Assembly (NCBI RefSeq): GCF_902506435.1
Contig: NZ_LR733215.1
Span: 1,574,097-1,638,096 of the forward strand
Source of the DNA: Nocardioides sp. AX2bis
GTDB taxonomy: Bacteria; Actinomycetota; Actinomycetes; Propionibacteriales; Nocardioidaceae
Direction of reading: 5' to 3'
DNA: 64,000 bases
The notes under the pieces are model-generated. The model was not told where the DNA came from. It did no database searches and saw only the letters and a program-made list of their open reading frames with translations. Below, in pieces: positions 52,622 to 61,507 of the stretch. The position numbers and the translations under genes were made by a program. The stretch's first letter is position 1. Every line of letters starts with the position of its first letter.

Positions 52622-53110
52622 TCAGCAGATGACCCGGAGCAGGTAGTTGCCCTCCGCGGACCCGAAGGAGTCCACGGCGATCCGGTAAGTGACGCCCCGG
52701 ATCGCGTCGAAGGCGACACGACTGGCGAGGCCGTCGCCGCTGTCGTCGTCCGCCGCGATCGGGGACAGCTGCGTCAGACGCCCCCCGCGGTAGACCGCGA
52801 GGACGGTGTCGAAGTCGCTGCCGTTGGTGTTCATCACGACGGTACGGCTCCGCGGGGCCTGCCAGGTCGTCCAGACCGACTGCACCGGCAGCGACCCGGC
52901 GCTGTAGTGAACCGGCTCGCCGGTCTGGCCGGTGGCCTGGGTGTTGCGGCCCTCGGCGGAGGCGTCGCAGCGCTGGGGGGTGAGGTTGTCGGCCCGGCTG
53001 TACAGGTCGTTGCGCGGCTCGGCGGCGTGGGCGGGCACGGTGGCGAGCCCGCCCAGCAGGCCGGCAGCGAGGACCGGGGTGGCGAGGGCGCGGACGGTGG
53101 TGCGGTTCAT
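52622..53110 (-). CDS. secreted protein with PPC-like domain
   Basis: A 162-residue protein. Residues 1-29 are a Sec signal peptide ending PAHAAEP. The mature part resembles a pre-peptidase C-terminal (PPC) beta-sandwich: VWTTWQAPRSRTVVMNTNGS (20), FDTVLAVYRGGRLTQL, RGVTYRIAVDSFGSAEGNYL (20). Two cysteines (C48 and the last residue C162) could form a disulfide. Such domains are usually attached to secreted proteases; here it is alone. The function is unknown. Confidence 0.82.
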   Translation of the reverse strand: MNRTTVRALATPVLAAGLLGGLATVPAHAAEPRNDLYSRADNLTPQRCDASAEGRNTQATGQTGEPVHYSAGSLPVQSVWTTWQAPRSRTVVMNTNGSDFDTVLAVYRGGRLTQLSPIAADDDSGDGLASRVAFDAIRGVTYRIAVDSFGSAEGNYLLRVIC

Positions 53111-53291: not shown

Positions 53292-53510
53292 CTAGCCACG
53301 GGACGGCCGGGTGTCGACGGCGTCGGCGGCGAGGCGGAGCACCGCGGCGCACTCGCGGTGACCCGCGACCGAGTCGGGGCAGGGCTGCCAGTAGCGGACC
53401 GTGGCCGCGACGTCCGCCGCGGTGTCCTCCTCGGCCCGGGCCAGCCGGAGCAGCTCGGTGCGCAGGTGCCGGCGCACCAGCACGGTGAGGTCGTGGGTCA
53501 GGGTGTCCAT
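53292..53510 (-). CDS. small hypothetical protein
   Basis: A 72-residue protein, MDTLTHDLTVLVRRHLRTEL (20) then LARAEEDTAADVAATVRYWQ (20) and CPDSVAGHREC near the end. GGAG lies 6 nt before the ATG. It is helical; the CxxxxxxHxxC group might bind a metal. No family is recognised. It is divergent from the Crp-type regulator and shares the box-bearing gap with it. Confidence 0.55.
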   Translation of the reverse strand: MDTLTHDLTVLVRRHLRTELLRLARAEEDTAADVAATVRYWQPCPDSVAGHRECAAVLRLAADAVDTRPSRG

Positions 53511-53594
53511 CTCAGCTCCGTCCGGGTCCGTGTCGGGTGCCTCCCGAGGTGGTGGGGCACGACATCGATGCTGTGACGACGGCGGCCCGGGCGG

Positions 53595-53633
53595 TGTCCG
53601 GGCGCCGACAGCGCGGGTGTCGGGTGCCCGACA
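53595..53633. promoter_or_regulatory. paired 16-bp TGTC boxes upstream of Crp-type gene
   Basis: TGTCCGGGCGCCGACA (53595-53610) and TGTCGGGTGCCCGACA (53618-53633, perfectly symmetric) have starts 23 bp apart. A half-box TGTCGGGTGCC lies at 53531. The symmetry TGTC-N8-GACA is of Crp/Fnr type. They end 46 bp before the regulator start and also face the divergent small gene, so autoregulation is suggested. Confidence 0.6.
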
Positions 53634-53679
53634 CCCCGGCGGTGCCGACGGCTGTCGGCGGGGACCTTGACGGGAGCCG

Positions 53680-54360
53680 GTGCGGTGGTTCACTGGCGAG
53701 GTGGAGTGGCCACTGTTCGACGGGCTCCCCGAGGCCCAGCGACGCGGCCTCGCGGAGGCCAGCCGCCGGCGCAGGTTCGCGCGCGGCGAGGTGCTGTTCC
53801 ACGAGGGCGACGCGGCCGACTCCCTGCACCAGGTGAGCAGCGGCGCCGTGGCCGTCCGGGTCACCACGGCCGCCGGCGACCTGTGCATGCTGGACGTGAT
53901 CGGGCCGGGCCGGGTCTTCGGCGAGCTCGGCCTGCTGGTCACCCACCGCACGCGGACAGCGACGGCGGTCGCCCTCGCCGCCACCGAGACGCGGTCGCTG
54001 CCCTACTCCGCCTTCGACGGGCTCCGCCGCGCCGACCCGTCGGTGGACCGGCTGCTCACGCAGCTGCTCGCCGACCACGTCGACCGGCTCAGCCACCGGC
54101 TGCTGGAGGCGTTGTACGTCAGCGTCGACCGCCGGGTGGCACGGCGGCTCCTGGACCTCGTGGAGGTCTACGACGACGGCGGGGACGGGCCCGTACGGAT
54201 CCCCCTCGCGCAGCGCGAGATCGCCGAGCTCGCCGGCGGGTCACGGGCGACCGTCAACGAGGTCCTGGGCCGGTTGGCCGACCAGGGAGCGGTGTCGCGG
54301 GGACGGGGGGAGCTCGCGGTGCTCGACCGGGCGGTGCTGACCCGCCGGGCCGGGCTGTAG
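53680..54360 (+). CDS. Crp/Fnr family transcriptional regulator
   Basis: A 226-residue regulator. The cyclic-nucleotide-binding domain is at about 15-125, with the phosphate cassette FGELGLL (G81, E82, L83) and R90/R92-T-A in HRTRTATAVA. The dimer helix is at about 120-150, and the winged HTH IPLAQREIAELAGGSRATVN (20) at 174-193. The cassette favours true cNMP binding over an Fnr-type iron-sulfur cluster, for which cysteines are lacking. The GTG at 53680 has GGGAG upstream; a GTG seven codons later is possible. Confidence 0.92.
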   Translation: MRWFTGEVEWPLFDGLPEAQRRGLAEASRRRRFARGEVLFHEGDAADSLHQVSSGAVAVRVTTAAGDLCMLDVIGPGRVFGELGLLVTHRTRTATAVALAATETRSLPYSAFDGLRRADPSVDRLLTQLLADHVDRLSHRLLEALYVSVDRRVARRLLDLVEVYDDGGDGPVRIPLAQREIAELAGGSRATVNEVLGRLADQGAVSRGRGELAVLDRAVLTRRAGL

Positions 54361-54389
54361 CCGGAGGGACCGTCGCGTGTCTCGTCCCG

Positions 54390-54428
54390 TGTCGTCGGGC
54401 GGACACCGGAGGTGTCGGCTCGGCGACA
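54390..54428. promoter_or_regulatory. paired 16-bp TGTC boxes upstream of secreted-protein/cyclase operon
   Basis: TGTCGTCGGGCGGACA (54390-54405) and TGTCGGCTCGGCGACA (54413-54428) have starts 23 bp apart, the same spacing as the pair before the Crp-type gene. They begin 29 bp after the regulator stop and end 157 bp before the next start codon. Confidence 0.55.
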
Positions 54429-54585
54429 GACCGTGGCCGCGGGTGCTGGCAACGTCCGGCACCACCGGAGCCGGCTCGCCGGCCGGCTCCGGGTCGTCCG
54501 TCCGCCACAGCGTTGACCTCCCGTCCCGACCGGCCTAGGTTCGATCGTGGGAAGGTCGTCGTGCCCGACCCCCAGGAGTTCCGCC

Positions 54586-55533
54586 ATGAAGCTCGCCCGC
54601 AGGACCCTCATCCCCGGTGCCGTCGTCGCCGCGCTCACCGCCGCGCTCGCCGCGGCCTGGACGGGCTCGGCCCCGTCCGCCGAGGCCCGGTGGACCTTCC
54701 ACAACGACGCCGTGGGCGAGGTCGTCTCCGCACCCGACGGCGGCACCCGGTCCGACACCTGCCGGGGTCGGCTGCGCGCGGTCGCCGGGTGGGGGACCTT
54801 CGTCGACGTCGAGAACGGGGAGGACCCCGCGGCGGTCCCGGTCCCGCCGGACGCGCTGACGTCGGTGCGGTACCAGGTCTGGAAGGCACCGGCCGGGATC
54901 GACAGCTTCGCCTCGGCGTTCGAGGACCCGGAGACGGGGGCGCTGGTCCTCGTGGCGCCGGACGGCACCCTGCGCGAAGCCGCACTCGCGGGCGCCGCGA
55001 CCACGCCCGCCCGCAGCCTCGTGGAGACCCCGCGACCGGCGGGGGGTGACCCGGGGCGGAGCGGCAGCTTCGTCTTCGCGACGGCGCCGTTCTCGGTCGA
55101 GCTGACCGGGGTCCGACCCGGCGACCTCCTCGGTCTCACCCCGCGCAGCTCGGGCGGGATCTTCGTCGGGCTGCGCGCGATCGACTGCGGGTTGCCGGTC
55201 CTCGGCGCGCGGGTCGACCTGCTGCCAGGCGCGGCGGGGAACGTGGTCAGTCCGCACGACGACGCCCAGCTCGTGCCGGTCCGCGTCTTCGGCGGCCGAC
55301 GCGTCGACGTCCGCCACCTCGACCGGGTCCGTCTCGGCGAGGCCGCTCCGGTCGAGGTGCGCGCCCCCCGTGACCACGACCGTGACGGGAGCCCCGACCG
55401 CGTCTACGTCTTCCGCCAGGGTGACACCGACATCCAGTGCCTCGACGGCCGCGTCACGGTGACCGGCCGTACCGCCGAGCCGGCGCGCATCTCGGCGCGC
55501 GCCCCGATCTCCACCACGGGGTGCGCGGGCTGA
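54586..55533 (+). CDS. secreted protein of unknown function
   Basis: A 315-residue protein with a signal peptide (about 1-33: MKLARRTLIPGAVVAALTAA (20), cleavage near SAEARW). The mature part is beta-rich, with a C-terminal EF-hand-like DHDRDGSPDRV that may bind calcium. Cysteines at about 63, 203, 289 and 313 could form disulfides. CAGGAG lies 8 nt before the ATG. The family is not recognised. The cyclase-like gene follows after 28 bp. Confidence 0.8.
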   Translation: MKLARRTLIPGAVVAALTAALAAAWTGSAPSAEARWTFHNDAVGEVVSAPDGGTRSDTCRGRLRAVAGWGTFVDVENGEDPAAVPVPPDALTSVRYQVWKAPAGIDSFASAFEDPETGALVLVAPDGTLREAALAGAATTPARSLVETPRPAGGDPGRSGSFVFATAPFSVELTGVRPGDLLGLTPRSSGGIFVGLRAIDCGLPVLGARVDLLPGAAGNVVSPHDDAQLVPVRVFGGRRVDVRHLDRVRLGEAAPVEVRAPRDHDRDGSPDRVYVFRQGDTDIQCLDGRVTVTGRTAEPARISARAPISTTGCAG

Positions 55534-55561
55534 CCCCCCGGGTCGGGCACCGCCCGTCGAC

Positions 55562-58500
55562 ATGCGGGGAGCAGCAGGGGTGGACGCCACGGCGATGGCG
55601 CCGGTGCGGTGCTTCACCCACGACCTGTTCGCCGACGGTGCGACGCTGGTGCAGGACGCGACCACGATGGCCGTCGACCTGGCCGGGTTCACCTCGCTGA
55701 CCGACCGTCTGTCGGCGTGGGGGAGCCGTGGCACCGAGCAGCTCAGCCAGGTCCTTCGCTCCTACTTCGAGGGCGTGACCGACCTCGTCGTGGCAGCGGG
55801 CGGCGACGTCGTCGCGTTCGGCGGCGACAGCCTCTCGATCCTCCTCGACGGACCGCCGGCGCCGACGCTCCGGGCCGCGCTGGGCGTCGCGACGAGGATC
55901 CAGGAGCTGACGGCCGCGACCCAGGCGGTCCCCGTGCCTGACGGCGTGACCACCCTCGGCGTGCGGGTGGGGGTGGCTCGCGGCACCGTGGCGACCGCGG
56001 TGGCGCGGTCGGGCGGCCGGCTGCTCCCGGTGCACGTGGGGCCCGGGCTGGACCTGGCGCACGCGGCCCAGGAGTCCGCGGGCACGGGCTCGGTCGCCGT
56101 GGACGGGTCCGCGGTGCCACGGTCCTCCGGAGCCGGTGGCACCGCCCCCCGTCAGAGGTCGGTGCCGGTGTCGGTACCGGTGCCGTGGTCGACGGGCAGG
56201 GTCCCGGTCGCGCTGCGCGGCGACGTGGACGGGCTGCTCCCGTCGGCCCTGCTGGAGCGCCTCCACCGCGGCCGCGAGCCCGAGGAGAGCCACCGGACGG
56301 TGACCGTGGCCTTCGTCCGCTACCCACCCGTGGACCCTGCGGACCTGCGGCCCTTCCTCGACCGCGTGGGCAGCCTCCTGGACCTGGTCCTCGCCTCCGG
56401 CGGCGAGGTGGTCCAGGTCTCCGGTGGCGACAAGGGGGTGCTGGCCATGGTCGTCCTGGGTGCGCCGGTCGCCCACCCCGACGACCCGGTGCGTGCCGTG
56501 CACGCCATGGTCGAGCTGCGGCGCCTCGAGCCCCGCGTCGCCGTCGGGATCGCCACGGGACCGGTCTTCGCGGCGGTGCTGGGATCGACGACCCGGTTGT
56601 TCCCGACCCACACCGGACTGGCCGTCAACGTCGCGGCCCGGCTCGCCCAGCACGCCGGGGACGGGTGCGTCCTGGTCGACGACCGGACCTGGGAGGGCGC
56701 CGCGCGGCACCTGCGGCTGGACGGGCGTCCCCGGCGGCTCTCGGTCAGGGGGTGCGACGCCCCGGTCCTGGTGCGCGGGGTCGCGGGCCGGCGCCGGGCC
56801 CCGGCCCGACCGGCGTCCGCCGCGGTGCCCCTGCTCGTGGGACGTCGGAGCGAGCTGGCGCGCGTCGAGCAGCTCCTGGACGCGGTCGCGACCGGGCGGG
56901 GCGGCGTCCTCACGCTCCACGGGCCGCCGGGCATCGGGGCGTCCCGGATCTGCCGGGAGGCGGTCGAGGGGGCGCGGACCCGTGGGTTCGGGACGGTCTG
57001 CGTCGACGTGGCCGACCATCCGCGGGGCCGGGCGCCCGGCGTGTGGCGCGAGGTCGTCGGGGCGCTGCTGGGCGTCCCGGCCCGGGCGGCGCGCCGGGTC
57101 TGGCTGGACGCGCTGGCGGTCGCGCTGCCGGACGTACCGGACCTCGTGGTGGTCCTCGGCCCCCTCCTCGGGCTGGGCGACGGGCCGTCACGGCGGTCGC
57201 TCGATCCCGGGGTCGAGCAGCTGGCCGCCGAGCTGGCACGGACCGCGCTCGGCCGGCTGCTCGTGCACGGAGCGGGGCGCGAGCCCGTGCTCCTGGTGGT
57301 CGAGCACGCCGACCGCCTCGACGGGACCTCGGCCGACCTCCTGCGGCACCTGGGTGCCGCGGCCTCCCGGTGCGCCGCCGGGGTGGTGCTCACCTGGGGC
57401 CCGGAGGGGGGCCCGGGCCGAACGGCACCCCCGGCCGGCGCGGTCGTGCTGGCCCCGCTCGGCCCGGACGACACCGGGCTCCTGGCGGAGGAGGCCTGGC
57501 GACGCGCGGGCGGTGGGACGCCCCCCTCCTGGCTCGCGGGCCTCGTCGTCCCCTACGCGGGAGGCCACCCCGTGGTCGCCCAGGCGGCGGTCCACGACCT
57601 GCTCGCGCGGTGGCGGCCGGGGGAGCCGCCACCGGCCCCGGGCGCCCTCGCCGGCCCCGCCACAGCCCTGGTGTCCTCCCAGGTCGACCGCCTGCCGGTC
57701 GACGCGGTCGAGCTGCTCACGGTGCTGGCGGTGGCGCAGCGACCGTGCGCGCCGCAGGTGCTGGTCGACCTGCTCCCCACCGGGCACGACCTGAACTCGG
57801 TCCGCCGGACGGCGAGCGCGCTCGAGGACGAGCACCTGGTGACCCACGGCGACGGCTCCGAGGAGACCTACCGGATCCCGCACGAGCTGGCGCGCCGTGT
57901 GGTCTACGACAGGGCCAGCCATGCCGTGCGGGAGCGCCTGCACCGCAGCCTGGTCGAGCGGCTCGCCTCGACCGGTGCGGACCCGGTCGAGGCCGCCGAG
58001 CACGCCCATGCGCTCGCCGACCCCGCGCTGGGGCGTCGGTGGTTCCCCCTGGCTGCGCAGGCGGCACGGGACGGGTGGGACCTCGACGGCGCGCTGGGCT
58101 GGCTGGAGCGGCTCCGGCCGCTGGTGCACGGCGCGGAGCGAGAGCGGGTGGAGCTGGAGGAGCTCGAGGTGCTGCTGGTGGCCGGCCGGGCCGTCGACGT
58201 CCTGGAGCGGCTCGAGCCTCCCGCGGCCGCGGGTCCGACATCGCGCGACCGCAGCCTCCTCGCCCGGCGCCTCCTCGTGCTCGCGGAGGCCGCCTACGGC
58301 TGCGGGAGGCCGGAGCGCACGGAGGAGGTCGCTGCCGAGGTGATGCGGCTGGTCGGCACCACCGACGAGCCGCGCTACCAGCGAGCCGGCGAGCTGCTCA
58401 CCCTGGCGCGGTGCCACCGGGGCGATCTCGAGGGTGCCCTGGTGTCGGGTCGTGCGCTCGTCGCCCGCGCCGCGTCCGGCGAGGACGCCGCGGTCCGGGC

Positions 58501-59485
58501 GACCGCCTCGGCGGCCCTCGCCGTGGTCCTGGTGCTGTCCGGCCGGCCGGGGGACGCGGAGGGGCACTACCGCGCTGCGCTCGCCGCGGCCACGGAGGCC
58601 GGGGACGTGGTCCGGCAGGTGCACGTGCTCAGCGACCTGGCCGGGTGCGCGTACCTGCAGGGCAGGCAGGAGGCGTGCGTGGAGCTGATGACGCAGGCAC
58701 GGGGGAGGGCCGAGACCATCGGCTACCAGCGCCACCTCGCGCTCAGCCTCAACAACGAGGCGCAGCTGCGCGTGGCGCTCGGCGACCGGTACGGACCCGC
58801 GTGCGCCTCGGCGTCGGTCCAGCGGAGCCTGGAGCTCGGCGACCTGGCGCAGGCCGCGGACGCCCTCCAGTCCTGGCTGGGCGCGACCCCGGCGCTCAAG
58901 GCCGACGCCGGGCTGTGGGGCCGACTGGTGCAGGTCGACCTGCGGCTGGGCCGCTCGCTCGAGGCCGCCGCCGGGCGGGCCGAGCTCGCGGTCGTGCTCG
59001 CCCGGTCGGGCCGGTACGCCGCCGCTCGCCGGGCGGCGACGGAGGCCGATGGGGACGATCCGGCCCACAACCCAGACGACGTCCGCCGCCGCGCGGCCCT
59101 CGCCCGGCTGCTGGCCGACGCCGGTGACGGTGCGGGCGGGGACGGGGACCACGTCCGTACCGGCCTGGACCTGCTGGCGGACGACCCGGACCTGGAGCCC
59201 CGCGAGCGCGCCGAGATCGCCCTGGAGCAGTGGCGGCTGACCCGGACGCCCGGGTCCCGGGCCGCTGCGGCGGCCTCGGTGGGCGAGGCGTACGCCGCCG
59301 AGCCGTCCGCGGTCGTGCGCTCCTGGCTCCGGCTCCTCCGGGAGCCCGTGCCGGCGGCCACCGACCGGCTGCCGCCACCGGTGGGGATCACCCGCGTCCG
59401 CTCCGGCCGCCGGGAGCTCGAGCAGGCGTTCGCCGACGTCGAGGCCGCCGTCGCCGCCGCGGCCCCCCCGGTGGTCGAGGAGTGA
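55562..59485 (+). CDS. class III cyclase-like / ATPase / TPR signalling protein
   Basis: A 1307-residue protein. The first cyclase homology domain (30-180) keeps both metal aspartates, D39 (MAVDLAGFTSL) and D89 (VVAFGGDSLSI), but has A85 where the adenine-binding lysine usually sits. The second (245-405) lacks the first Asp (TVAFVRYPP) and reads VSGGDKGVL at the second, with HTGLAVNVAARLAQHAG kept. An AAA/STAND ATPase follows, but Walker A is GPPGIGAS (454-461), with A460 for lysine; Walker B is LLVVEHADRLD. The C-terminal third is TPR-like helices. The last residues (PPVVEE) and the stop come from a family A repeat. A GTG six codons in has the better ribosome-binding site. Confidence 0.9.
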   Translation: MRGAAGVDATAMAPVRCFTHDLFADGATLVQDATTMAVDLAGFTSLTDRLSAWGSRGTEQLSQVLRSYFEGVTDLVVAAGGDVVAFGGDSLSILLDGPPAPTLRAALGVATRIQELTAATQAVPVPDGVTTLGVRVGVARGTVATAVARSGGRLLPVHVGPGLDLAHAAQESAGTGSVAVDGSAVPRSSGAGGTAPRQRSVPVSVPVPWSTGRVPVALRGDVDGLLPSALLERLHRGREPEESHRTVTVAFVRYPPVDPADLRPFLDRVGSLLDLVLASGGEVVQVSGGDKGVLAMVVLGAPVAHPDDPVRAVHAMVELRRLEPRVAVGIATGPVFAAVLGSTTRLFPTHTGLAVNVAARLAQHAGDGCVLVDDRTWEGAARHLRLDGRPRRLSVRGCDAPVLVRGVAGRRRAPARPASAAVPLLVGRRSELARVEQLLDAVATGRGGVLTLHGPPGIGASRICREAVEGARTRGFGTVCVDVADHPRGRAPGVWREVVGALLGVPARAARRVWLDALAVALPDVPDLVVVLGPLLGLGDGPSRRSLDPGVEQLAAELARTALGRLLVHGAGREPVLLVVEHADRLDGTSADLLRHLGAAASRCAAGVVLTWGPEGGPGRTAPPAGAVVLAPLGPDDTGLLAEEAWRRAGGGTPPSWLAGLVVPYAGGHPVVAQAAVHDLLARWRPGEPPPAPGALAGPATALVSSQVDRLPVDAVELLTVLAVAQRPCAPQVLVDLLPTGHDLNSVRRTASALEDEHLVTHGDGSEETYRIPHELARRVVYDRASHAVRERLHRSLVERLASTGADPVEAAEHAHALADPALGRRWFPLAAQAARDGWDLDGALGWLERLRPLVHGAERERVELEELEVLLVAGRAVDVLERLEPPAAAGPTSRDRSLLARRLLVLAEAAYGCGRPERTEEVAAEVMRLVGTTDEPRYQRAGELLTLARCHRGDLEGALVSGRALVARAASGEDAAVRATASAALAVVLVLSGRPGDAEGHYRAALAAATEAGDVVRQVHVLSDLAGCAYLQGRQEACVELMTQARGRAETIGYQRHLALSLNNEAQLRVALGDRYGPACASASVQRSLELGDLAQAADALQSWLGATPALKADAGLWGRLVQVDLRLGRSLEAAAGRAELAVVLARSGRYAAARRAATEADGDDPAHNPDDVRRRAALARLLADAGDGAGGDGDHVRTGLDLLADDPDLEPRERAEIALEQWRLTRTPGSRAAAAASVGEAYAAEPSAVVRSWLRLLREPVPAATDRLPPPVGITRVRSGRRELEQAFADVEAAVAAAAPPVVEE

Positions 59486-59818
59486 GCGAAGCGCCCCCGG
59501 TGGTCGAGGAGCGAGCGCAACCCGGGGGTCGAGGAGCGAGCGCAGCGCCCCCGGTGGTCGAGGAGTGAGCGCAGCGAGCGTCACGAGACCAGGAACCCGC
59601 CGGTGGTCGAGGAGCGAGCGCAGGGCCCACGGTGGTCGAGGAGCGAGCGAAGCGAGCGTCACGAGACCCAGGACCCGGTGGTCGAGGAGCGAGCGCAGCA
59701 CCCCCGGTGGTCGAGGAGCGAGCGCAGCGAGCGTCACGAGACCCAGGACCCGGTGGTCGAGGAGCGAGCGCAGCACCCCCGGTGGTCGAGGAGCGAGCGC
59801 AGCGAGCGTCACGAGACC
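59470..59818 (+). repeat. family A repeat array, forward orientation (locus 3, left)
   Basis: About nine units, full and shortened, from inside the last codons of the cyclase-like gene to the HNH leader. Two copies carry GAGTGAG for GAGCGAG; the first of these supplies the stop codon of the preceding gene. Apart from repeats nothing is seen here. Confidence 0.95.
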
Positions 59819-59934
59819 CCCACCGCGACTGTTACTGAATGTTTGATCGAATGTGCCTGTCCTGGGTGTGCAGAACCGCCTCTGACCTGTGGAAACAGAC
59901 AAGGGTTGTCGGTGGTGAGTGCTTGGATTGATCC
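59819..59934 (+). promoter_or_regulatory. conserved leader of HNH gene, copy 2
   Basis: Homologous to 20485-20600 and equally long. The blocks GCGACTGTTACTGAA, GTTTGATCGAATG and CCTCTGACCTGTGGAAACAG are shared, with the differences concentrated between them. It probably contains the promoter and 5' UTR. Confidence 0.5.
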
Positions 59935-61227: not shown

Positions 61228-61507
61228 GGTCTCGTGACGCTCGCTTCGCTCGCTCCTCGACCACCGGGTGCTGCGCGCCCTCGACCACCGGGCCTGGTCT
61301 CGTGACGCTCGCTGCGCTCGCTCCTCGACCACCGGTTCCGCTGCGCTCGCTCCTCGACCACCGGTTCCGCTGCGCTCGCTCCTCGACCACCGGTTCCGCT
61401 GCGCTCGCTCCTCGACCACCGGTTCCGCTGCGCTCGCTCCTCGACCACCGGTTCCGCTGCGCTCGCTCCTCGACCACCAGTTCCGCTGCGCTCGCTCCTC
61501 GACCACC
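61228..61507 (-). repeat. family A repeats, inverted orientation (locus 3, right)
   Basis: Two full inverted 38-bp units and one 26-bp variant are followed by six head-to-tail copies of a 29-bp unit (GGTTCCGCTGCGCTCGC then TCCTCGACCACC) at 61334-61507, identical apart from a G to A at the start of the sixth. The array begins 22 bp after the HNH stop. Confidence 0.95.

Follow-up and report, generated by a model that had tools for sequence, protein, structure and literature searches.

The closest described relatives of the regulator studied here are GlxR and the CRP of M. tuberculosis (Rv3676), which combine a two-domain fold with a cyclic nucleotide monophosphate (cNMP) cassette and recognise TGTGA-N6-TCACA sites. 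Clr of Sinorhizobium meliloti, a cluster G Crp with the core site GTNNCNNNNGNNAC, carries Thr-Thr at positions 127/128, keeps the equivalent of R180, lacks E181 and is genetically linked to class III cyclases (PMC10127613). CooA of Rhodospirillum and Desulfovibrio is a heme sensor of carbon monoxide controlling coo genes; PMC545781 gives its operator consensus as TGTCGGCNNGCCGACA. Among the enzymes, human soluble adenylyl cyclase (sAC; ADCY10) and bacterial sAC-like cyclase-AAA-TPR proteins have tandem cyclase homology domains followed by an NTPase and a TPR-like region. Bacteria often have many cyclases and few receptors, and a Crp with a cyclase of its own bears on how such signals stay separate. 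Here we analyse a 64-kb stretch (the window) of a 4.2-Mb Nocardioides genome (G000), where genes for a Crp-type regulator (P0001), a secreted protein (P0002) and a cyclase-homology protein (P0003) lie beside two pairs of 16-bp palindromic boxes. We put at roughly 75% the probability that P0001 is a dedicated cyclic-nucleotide-responsive Crp that would act through these boxes on its own gene and on the cyclase operon.

Results

Two pairs of boxes share one spacing

Scanning the window, we found four exact TGTC-N8-GACA boxes, and all four fall in two pairs. Box 1a (TGTCCGGGCGCCGACA, 53595..53610) and box 1b (TGTCGGGTGCCCGACA, 53618..53633) are candidate operators on the crp side; box 2a (TGTCGTCGGGCGGACA, 54390..54405) and box 2b (TGTCGGCTCGGCGACA, 54413..54428) are their counterparts on the side of the cyclase operon. 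An earlier note on this DNA had described 16-bp boxes with TGTC and GACA ends at 53595/53618 and 54390/54413, an exact 23-bp distance within both pairs and an FGELGLL cNMP-binding cassette in the regulator, and each is where the note had it. Dinucleotide shuffling of the window gave an expectation of 0.88 boxes, four being reached in 1 of 100 shuffles. Across the whole genome there were 19 exact single boxes (5 for a reversed-letter control), and besides the window's two, both before genes, no exact pair had the 23-bp spacing. The sole other exact 23-bp pair among 215 Nocardioides genomes was a short tandem repeat in G057. We rejected a looser pattern allowing two mismatches as a genome-wide diagnostic, as it matched 59 of the 215 genomes and many of its matches resembled background. 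A large regulon in this genome was rejected as well, the 15 other exact single boxes occurring without a second 23-bp pair.

The close relative G151 preserves the entire locus in synteny, with a nucleotide identity of about 85% and protein identities of 91% for Crp, 71% for the secreted protein, 68-77% for the cyclase and 81% for a small divergent gene. Both of its intergenic regions keep a box pair at 23 bp, TGTCCGCCCGCCGACA / CGTCGGGTGCCCGACA on the crp side and TGTCGGCAGGCCGACG / TGTCGGCCGGGCGACA on the cyclase side, box 2a having its counterpart in the same place. The inner letters differ and the TGTC/GACA ends are almost all retained. The G151 genome held no further 23-bp pairs even when two mismatches were allowed. 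The boxes and their spacing are thus kept in the one relative that has all the genes, and they are also kept around more distant Crp orthologues having quite different cyclases.

The boxes and their spacing recur beside distant Crp orthologues

Orthologues of P0001 (40-56% identity) occur in about 20 of 147 Nocardioides genomes, and a separate Crp paralogue (33-38% identity) in nearly every one. At the 20 Nocardioides loci of a first set, exact boxes numbered 11 in 34 kb of intergenic DNA and 0 in 219 kb of coding DNA; six intergenic pairs stood at 23 bp, and no other spacing in the range 16 to 60 bp had more than two. The result was repeated in a second set of loci, drawn later from named genomes (among them Aeromicrobium, Knoellia, Nostocoides, Patulibacter and Solirubrobacter): 10 pairs stood at 23 bp, and again no other spacing had more than two. 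In an unbiased dyad scan of 37 loci, which covered every 4-mer inverted repeat with a gap from 4 to 14, we found that TGTC-N8-GACA ranked first for intergenic enrichment (21 intergenic, 0 coding; p 2.8e-18, next dyad 1.4e-6); these p-values overstate the evidence, since related genomes are not independent, yet the pairs precede different genes in different genomes. At these loci the box is thus strongly enriched between genes and missing from coding DNA; conservation in relatives and box frequency were the two checks by which the earlier note's proposal could fail, and it passed both. With the two sets combined, 23 bp accounted for 16 pairs, whereas the other spacings from 16 to 120 averaged 0.26. 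In Nostocoides sp. F2B08, three boxes follow one another at 23-bp steps ahead of an MFS gene (L099:10393-10454).

Gene calls at these loci came from a home-made caller, so individual gene ends may be off. Boxes precede crp itself at seven loci (L044, L045, L046, L051, L052, L083 and L110), operons of an MFS exporter and a zinc-ribbon-cyclase-AAA-TPR protein at four (L045, L048, L051 and L052), and a cyclase-crp operon at L050. At L045 the box centres lie 38.5/61.5 bp ahead of a leaderless crp start. Small-protein genes are also preceded by boxes, with centres about 80.5/103.5 bp (L041, L078), 83.5/106.5 bp (L080, L098) or 85.5/108.5 bp (L046) before the ATG. Given a leader of about 40 nt, such positions would be those of class-II-like activator sites.

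In many relatives the circuit surrounds a gene set that the window lacks. It encodes small acidic DVEGH-repeat peptides, a GAF protein, an S8 peptidase and an MFS exporter. The peptide genes (L041:7840-8184, L046:5911-6099, L047:5743-6012, L048:4386-4625, L049:11964-12182, L056:4155-4430, L098:8764-8997, L093 and L094:11538) mostly have boxes 73-108 bp upstream, and the GAF, S8 peptidase and MFS genes adjoin them in most cases. The peptides look like multi-core precursors; they had no credible Pfam match, and the matches listed by an open-literature search for DVEGH were all unrelated. The MFS exporters at L041:477-2099 and L046:8374-10038 bear a C-terminal cyclic-nucleotide-binding domain (PF00027), which, in the same gene neighbourhood, makes this exporter a candidate second receptor of the same signal. 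We did not find the peptidase/peptide module elsewhere in the window's genome, where the best S8 match was 32% identical.

Two further box arrangements were seen in relatives. Well-formed pairs lie off the Crp locus in other Nocardioides genomes (G033:C9:130503, G100:C4:22881 and G214:C98:9735). In a clade with a response-regulator-cyclase, a box or box pair sits just downstream of crp (L059:6768-6806, L080:6714-6752, L054:6692), about 80 bp ahead of genes for 60-67-aa proteins ending HSRLW.LVH..HA.

Cyclases of several kinds adjoin the Crp gene

A class III cyclase lies within 8 kb at 16 of 24 Crp orthologue loci, where 0.4 were expected; none of 16 housekeeping-type Crp paralogues has one nearby. 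An average of 5 class III cyclase domains was detected per orthologue-carrying genome. The neighbouring cyclases are of at least six architectures, including the sAC type (window, G151 and G042), zinc-ribbon-cyclase-AAA-TPR, cyclase-FHA, seven-transmembrane-GAF-cyclase and response-regulator-cyclase. Placed on the Crp protein tree, the partner labels need 12 changes (minimum 8) against 21.6 when shuffled, with two for the sAC type; the partner type is therefore clustered, yet has been exchanged several times. We had considered that relatives might keep the same cyclase as partner and rejected this, their partners being other cyclases. Homologues of P0003 at E <= 1e-30 were found, in searches of chosen genomes, in G151 and otherwise only in G024 and G026, where they lie elsewhere in the genome and are 28-30% identical.

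The regulator keeps the cNMP cassette, the predicted cyclase most catalytic residues

The crp-type gene (53701..54360, + strand) encodes a protein with cNMP_binding (PF00027, 2.7e-19) and HTH_Crp_2 (PF13545, 3.1e-15) domains in profile searches, which places it in the Crp/Fnr superfamily, among the cyclic-nucleotide type. Its AlphaFold model has a predicted local distance difference test (pLDDT) score of 93, and M. tuberculosis CRP and GlxR with cAMP are the PDB entries matched best, in sequence as well as in structure (Foldseek), at about 29% identity. For the phosphate-binding residues E72, R82 and S83 of E. coli CRP, P0001 has E, R and T. Its clade retains G71, E72, R82 and S/T83, with R82 changed to H in G051 only. 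It differs from GlxR and Rv3676 in being a separate paralogue, present in addition to a housekeeping-type Crp, in having Leu for Thr127, and in its recognition helix.

That helix reads RATVNE or RPSVNQ in place of the RE(T/M)VGR of the main Crp cluster: R180 is kept, E181 is Ala or Pro, and R185 is mostly Gln or Glu. The boxes, with the consensus TGTC-(G/A)-G-(C/G)-NN, likewise depart from the main-cluster site and come in 23-bp pairs. By reasoning from CRP structures, E181 and R185 are the residues that would read the GA of TGTGA; their loss beside an unchanged R180 fits a site opening with TGTC and retaining the TGT-N10-ACA frame. The clade resembles Clr in R180, in the absence of E181 and in the link to class III cyclases, and differs from it at positions 127/128, where Leu-Ser replaces Thr-Thr.

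P0003 (55580..59485, + strand) is a 1.3-kaa protein of soluble-adenylyl-cyclase type, with tandem cyclase homology domains, an AAA_16 ATPase (1.6e-15) and a TPR-like C-terminus (a weak TPR_12 match). It aligns with ADCY10 across both cyclase domains (phmmer). The residues compared are those generally regarded as catalytic in sAC. P0003 has the metal Asp pair D39 and D89 and the C2 residues K291, N356 and R360 (numbered from ATG 55562), all shared with ADCY10, and with most catalytic residues in place it is a predicted cyclase. Unlike ADCY10, it is preceded in its operon by a gene for a secreted protein. Over cyclase-AAA-TPR it is weakly similar to the TOMM kinase/cyclase fusion (TIGR03903), at 68.6 bits against a cut-off of 705.75 bits; the match begins at profile position 388, there is no kinase domain, and no TOMM cluster was seen at the locus.

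Gene starts and promoters

The boxes stood as the earlier note had them; two gene starts and the distance of pair 2 from its gene call for correction. The crp start is likely GTG 53701 (VEWPL...) and not that of the longer frame, because orthologues open M/V-[ED]WP after a conserved GGTT[GC]ACT. Six bp before this leaderless-type GTG ends a putative core promoter, TTGACG-N16-TTCACT (53667..53694, + strand), picked out by eye and conserved in G151; TT[GC]ACT is found again ahead of crp in many orthologues. The centres of pair 1 lie 75.5/98.5 bp ahead of crp and 92.5/115.5 bp ahead of a divergent 72-aa gene.

The first gene of the cyclase operon (54586..55533, + strand) encodes the 315-aa secreted protein, with an N-terminal signal peptide recognised by eye. 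Before it lies a second putative core promoter, also picked by eye, TTGACC-N17-TAGGTT (54513..54541, + strand); G151 has TTGACC and a TANNNT-like element at the same spacing. A consensus promoter scan detected neither core promoter. The centres of pair 2 are 165.5/188.5 bp ahead of the secreted-protein ATG, far upstream of the putative promoter. The cyclase start is probably GTG 55580: the open reading frame itself opens at ATG 55562, and the GTG is favoured because that ATG is not kept in G151.

Discussion

From the boxes, their spacing, the gene neighbourhood, the conservation of each and the residues, all read directly, we infer the following circuit. The Crp dimer would bind 16-bp palindromes close to TGTCGGC-NN-GCCGACA, and two dimers would occupy the boxes of a 23-bp pair next to each other, binding cooperatively; the constant spacing and the same step in the Nostocoides three-box array suggest contact between neighbouring dimers. 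Pair 1 would control crp itself and perhaps the divergent 72-aa gene, and pair 2 the operon of the secreted protein and the cyclase. The cyclase would make a cyclic nucleotide that switches Crp, which would close a feedback loop. The effect would be mainly activation, since the pairs of relatives at about 80.5/103.5 bp from a leadered ATG, or at 38.5/61.5 bp from the leaderless crp start, are activator-like. The earlier note had proposed a Crp-type protein controlling itself and a possible cyclase gene, and as a regulatory hypothesis this is well supported by the conservation of boxes and spacing and by the cyclase linkage (16/24 loci against 0/16).

Several observations weigh against this circuit. 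Every orthologue has Leu in place of the adenine-contacting Thr127 of CRP, positions 127/128 being Leu/Ser in all but G092 (Leu/Gly); this is the main reason to doubt cAMP as the ligand, and the clade may have another ligand or an altered ligand dependence. In P0003, Ala85 replaces Lys95 of sAC, the C1 residue that contacts bicarbonate/ATP. Eight of the 24 orthologue loci are without a nearby cyclase, and a recognisable 23-bp pair is present at only 13 of 37 loci. Pair 2 is unusually distant from both the start codon and the putative core promoter. Finally, the G151 cyclase is frameshifted at about aa 445 (L040), past the cyclase domains and ahead of the AAA domain, either by a genuine change or by a sequencing error.

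Leu127, Ala85 and the loci without a nearby cyclase, together with a PF00211 match that is good only in the second domain of P0003, are what would be expected if the boxes were operators of an autoregulated Crp and the cyclase-homology protein were not its ligand source, being catalytically dead or serving as an NTPase or scaffold, while Crp sensed another signal or acted independently of ligand. We consider this unlikely. The recurrence of at least six unlike cyclase architectures beside the Crp orthologues would be difficult to account for if Crp and cyclase were not functionally linked; the zinc-ribbon-type neighbour cyclases have the canonical K and D residues in their sequences, and the module's MFS protein in relatives also bears a cyclic-nucleotide-binding domain.

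It is very improbable that the boxes are the operators of some other regulator acting on the same promoters as well. Palindromes of this kind do serve other families: in the same genome, TGTCAGG...CTGACA palindromes 27 bp apart stand directly before a MarR-type gene (L075:3051-3093; G000:C8:3094550-3094592) and are probably that regulator's own operator. Our boxes, however, accompany the Crp gene even in distant genomes, lie ahead of crp itself and share the TGT-N10-ACA frame with Crp-family sites, and no other regulator gene is common to all these loci.

We give still less credit to P0001 being a CooA-like heme gas sensor. The box consensus is nearly identical to that of CooA (in the part of PMC545781 used here, where no paired 23-bp arrangement was seen), but the cNMP phosphate cassette (E72, R82, S/T83) is intact in P0001 and its orthologues, which argues against heme. 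Moreover, cyclase genes adjoin, genes for carbon monoxide dehydrogenase were not seen next to the locus, and the nearest structures are cAMP-bound CRP and GlxR. Chance palindromes in GC-rich DNA, of which about one TGTC-N8-GACA is expected per window, are refuted by the two exact same-spaced pairs, their conservation in G151 and the strong enrichment that both sets of relatives show for box and spacing alike.

The preferred reading, a cyclic-nucleotide-responsive Crp that would control itself and a cyclase operon, leads to a broader proposal on which we are evenly divided. An undescribed actinobacterial Crp clade, marked by Leu127 and an altered recognition helix, would form insulated cyclic-nucleotide circuits: most copies would have their own class III cyclase, of a type exchanged between lineages, and would keep a double, sometimes triple, operator at an exact 23-bp period. 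In many genomes the circuit would drive small peptides of several repeats, a GAF protein, an S8 peptidase and an exporter that has a cyclic-nucleotide-binding domain of its own. A Crp-type cyclic-nucleotide circuit as such is known; here it comes with an unusual fixed double operator and with exchangeable cyclase partners. An open-literature search for work on a Nocardioides cAMP receptor found nothing. If true, the proposal would provide a clear case of a private cyclic-nucleotide channel existing alongside a housekeeping Crp. The operator code, TGTC-N8-GACA in 23-bp steps, offers a testable rule for finding regulons in any genome, and it links the circuit to unstudied repeat-containing small peptides, an S8 peptidase and an exporter.

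Other features of the locus

The 72-aa gene divergent from crp (53292..53510, - strand) is the 81%-identical small gene of the G151 comparison. It may be a third target, of pair 1, because that pair lies 92.5/115.5 bp before its start and small-protein genes are putative targets in relatives. The adjoining gene at 52622-53110 (- strand) encodes another small secreted protein, of 162 aa and with no match in Pfam; its G151 counterpart is 77% identical, and it may share a transcript with the 72-aa gene.

P0002 matched no known family in profile searches, its single-sequence structure model was useless (pLDDT 34), and among 216 genomes of the genus a homologue was found in G151 only. Arrays of a 29-bp repeat (GGTGGTCGAGGAGCGAGCGCAGC...) at 59458-59819 and 61228-61507 of the window overlap the cyclase gene at its end and lie on either side of an HNH/DUF222-like gene; such arrays also occur near the G151 locus.

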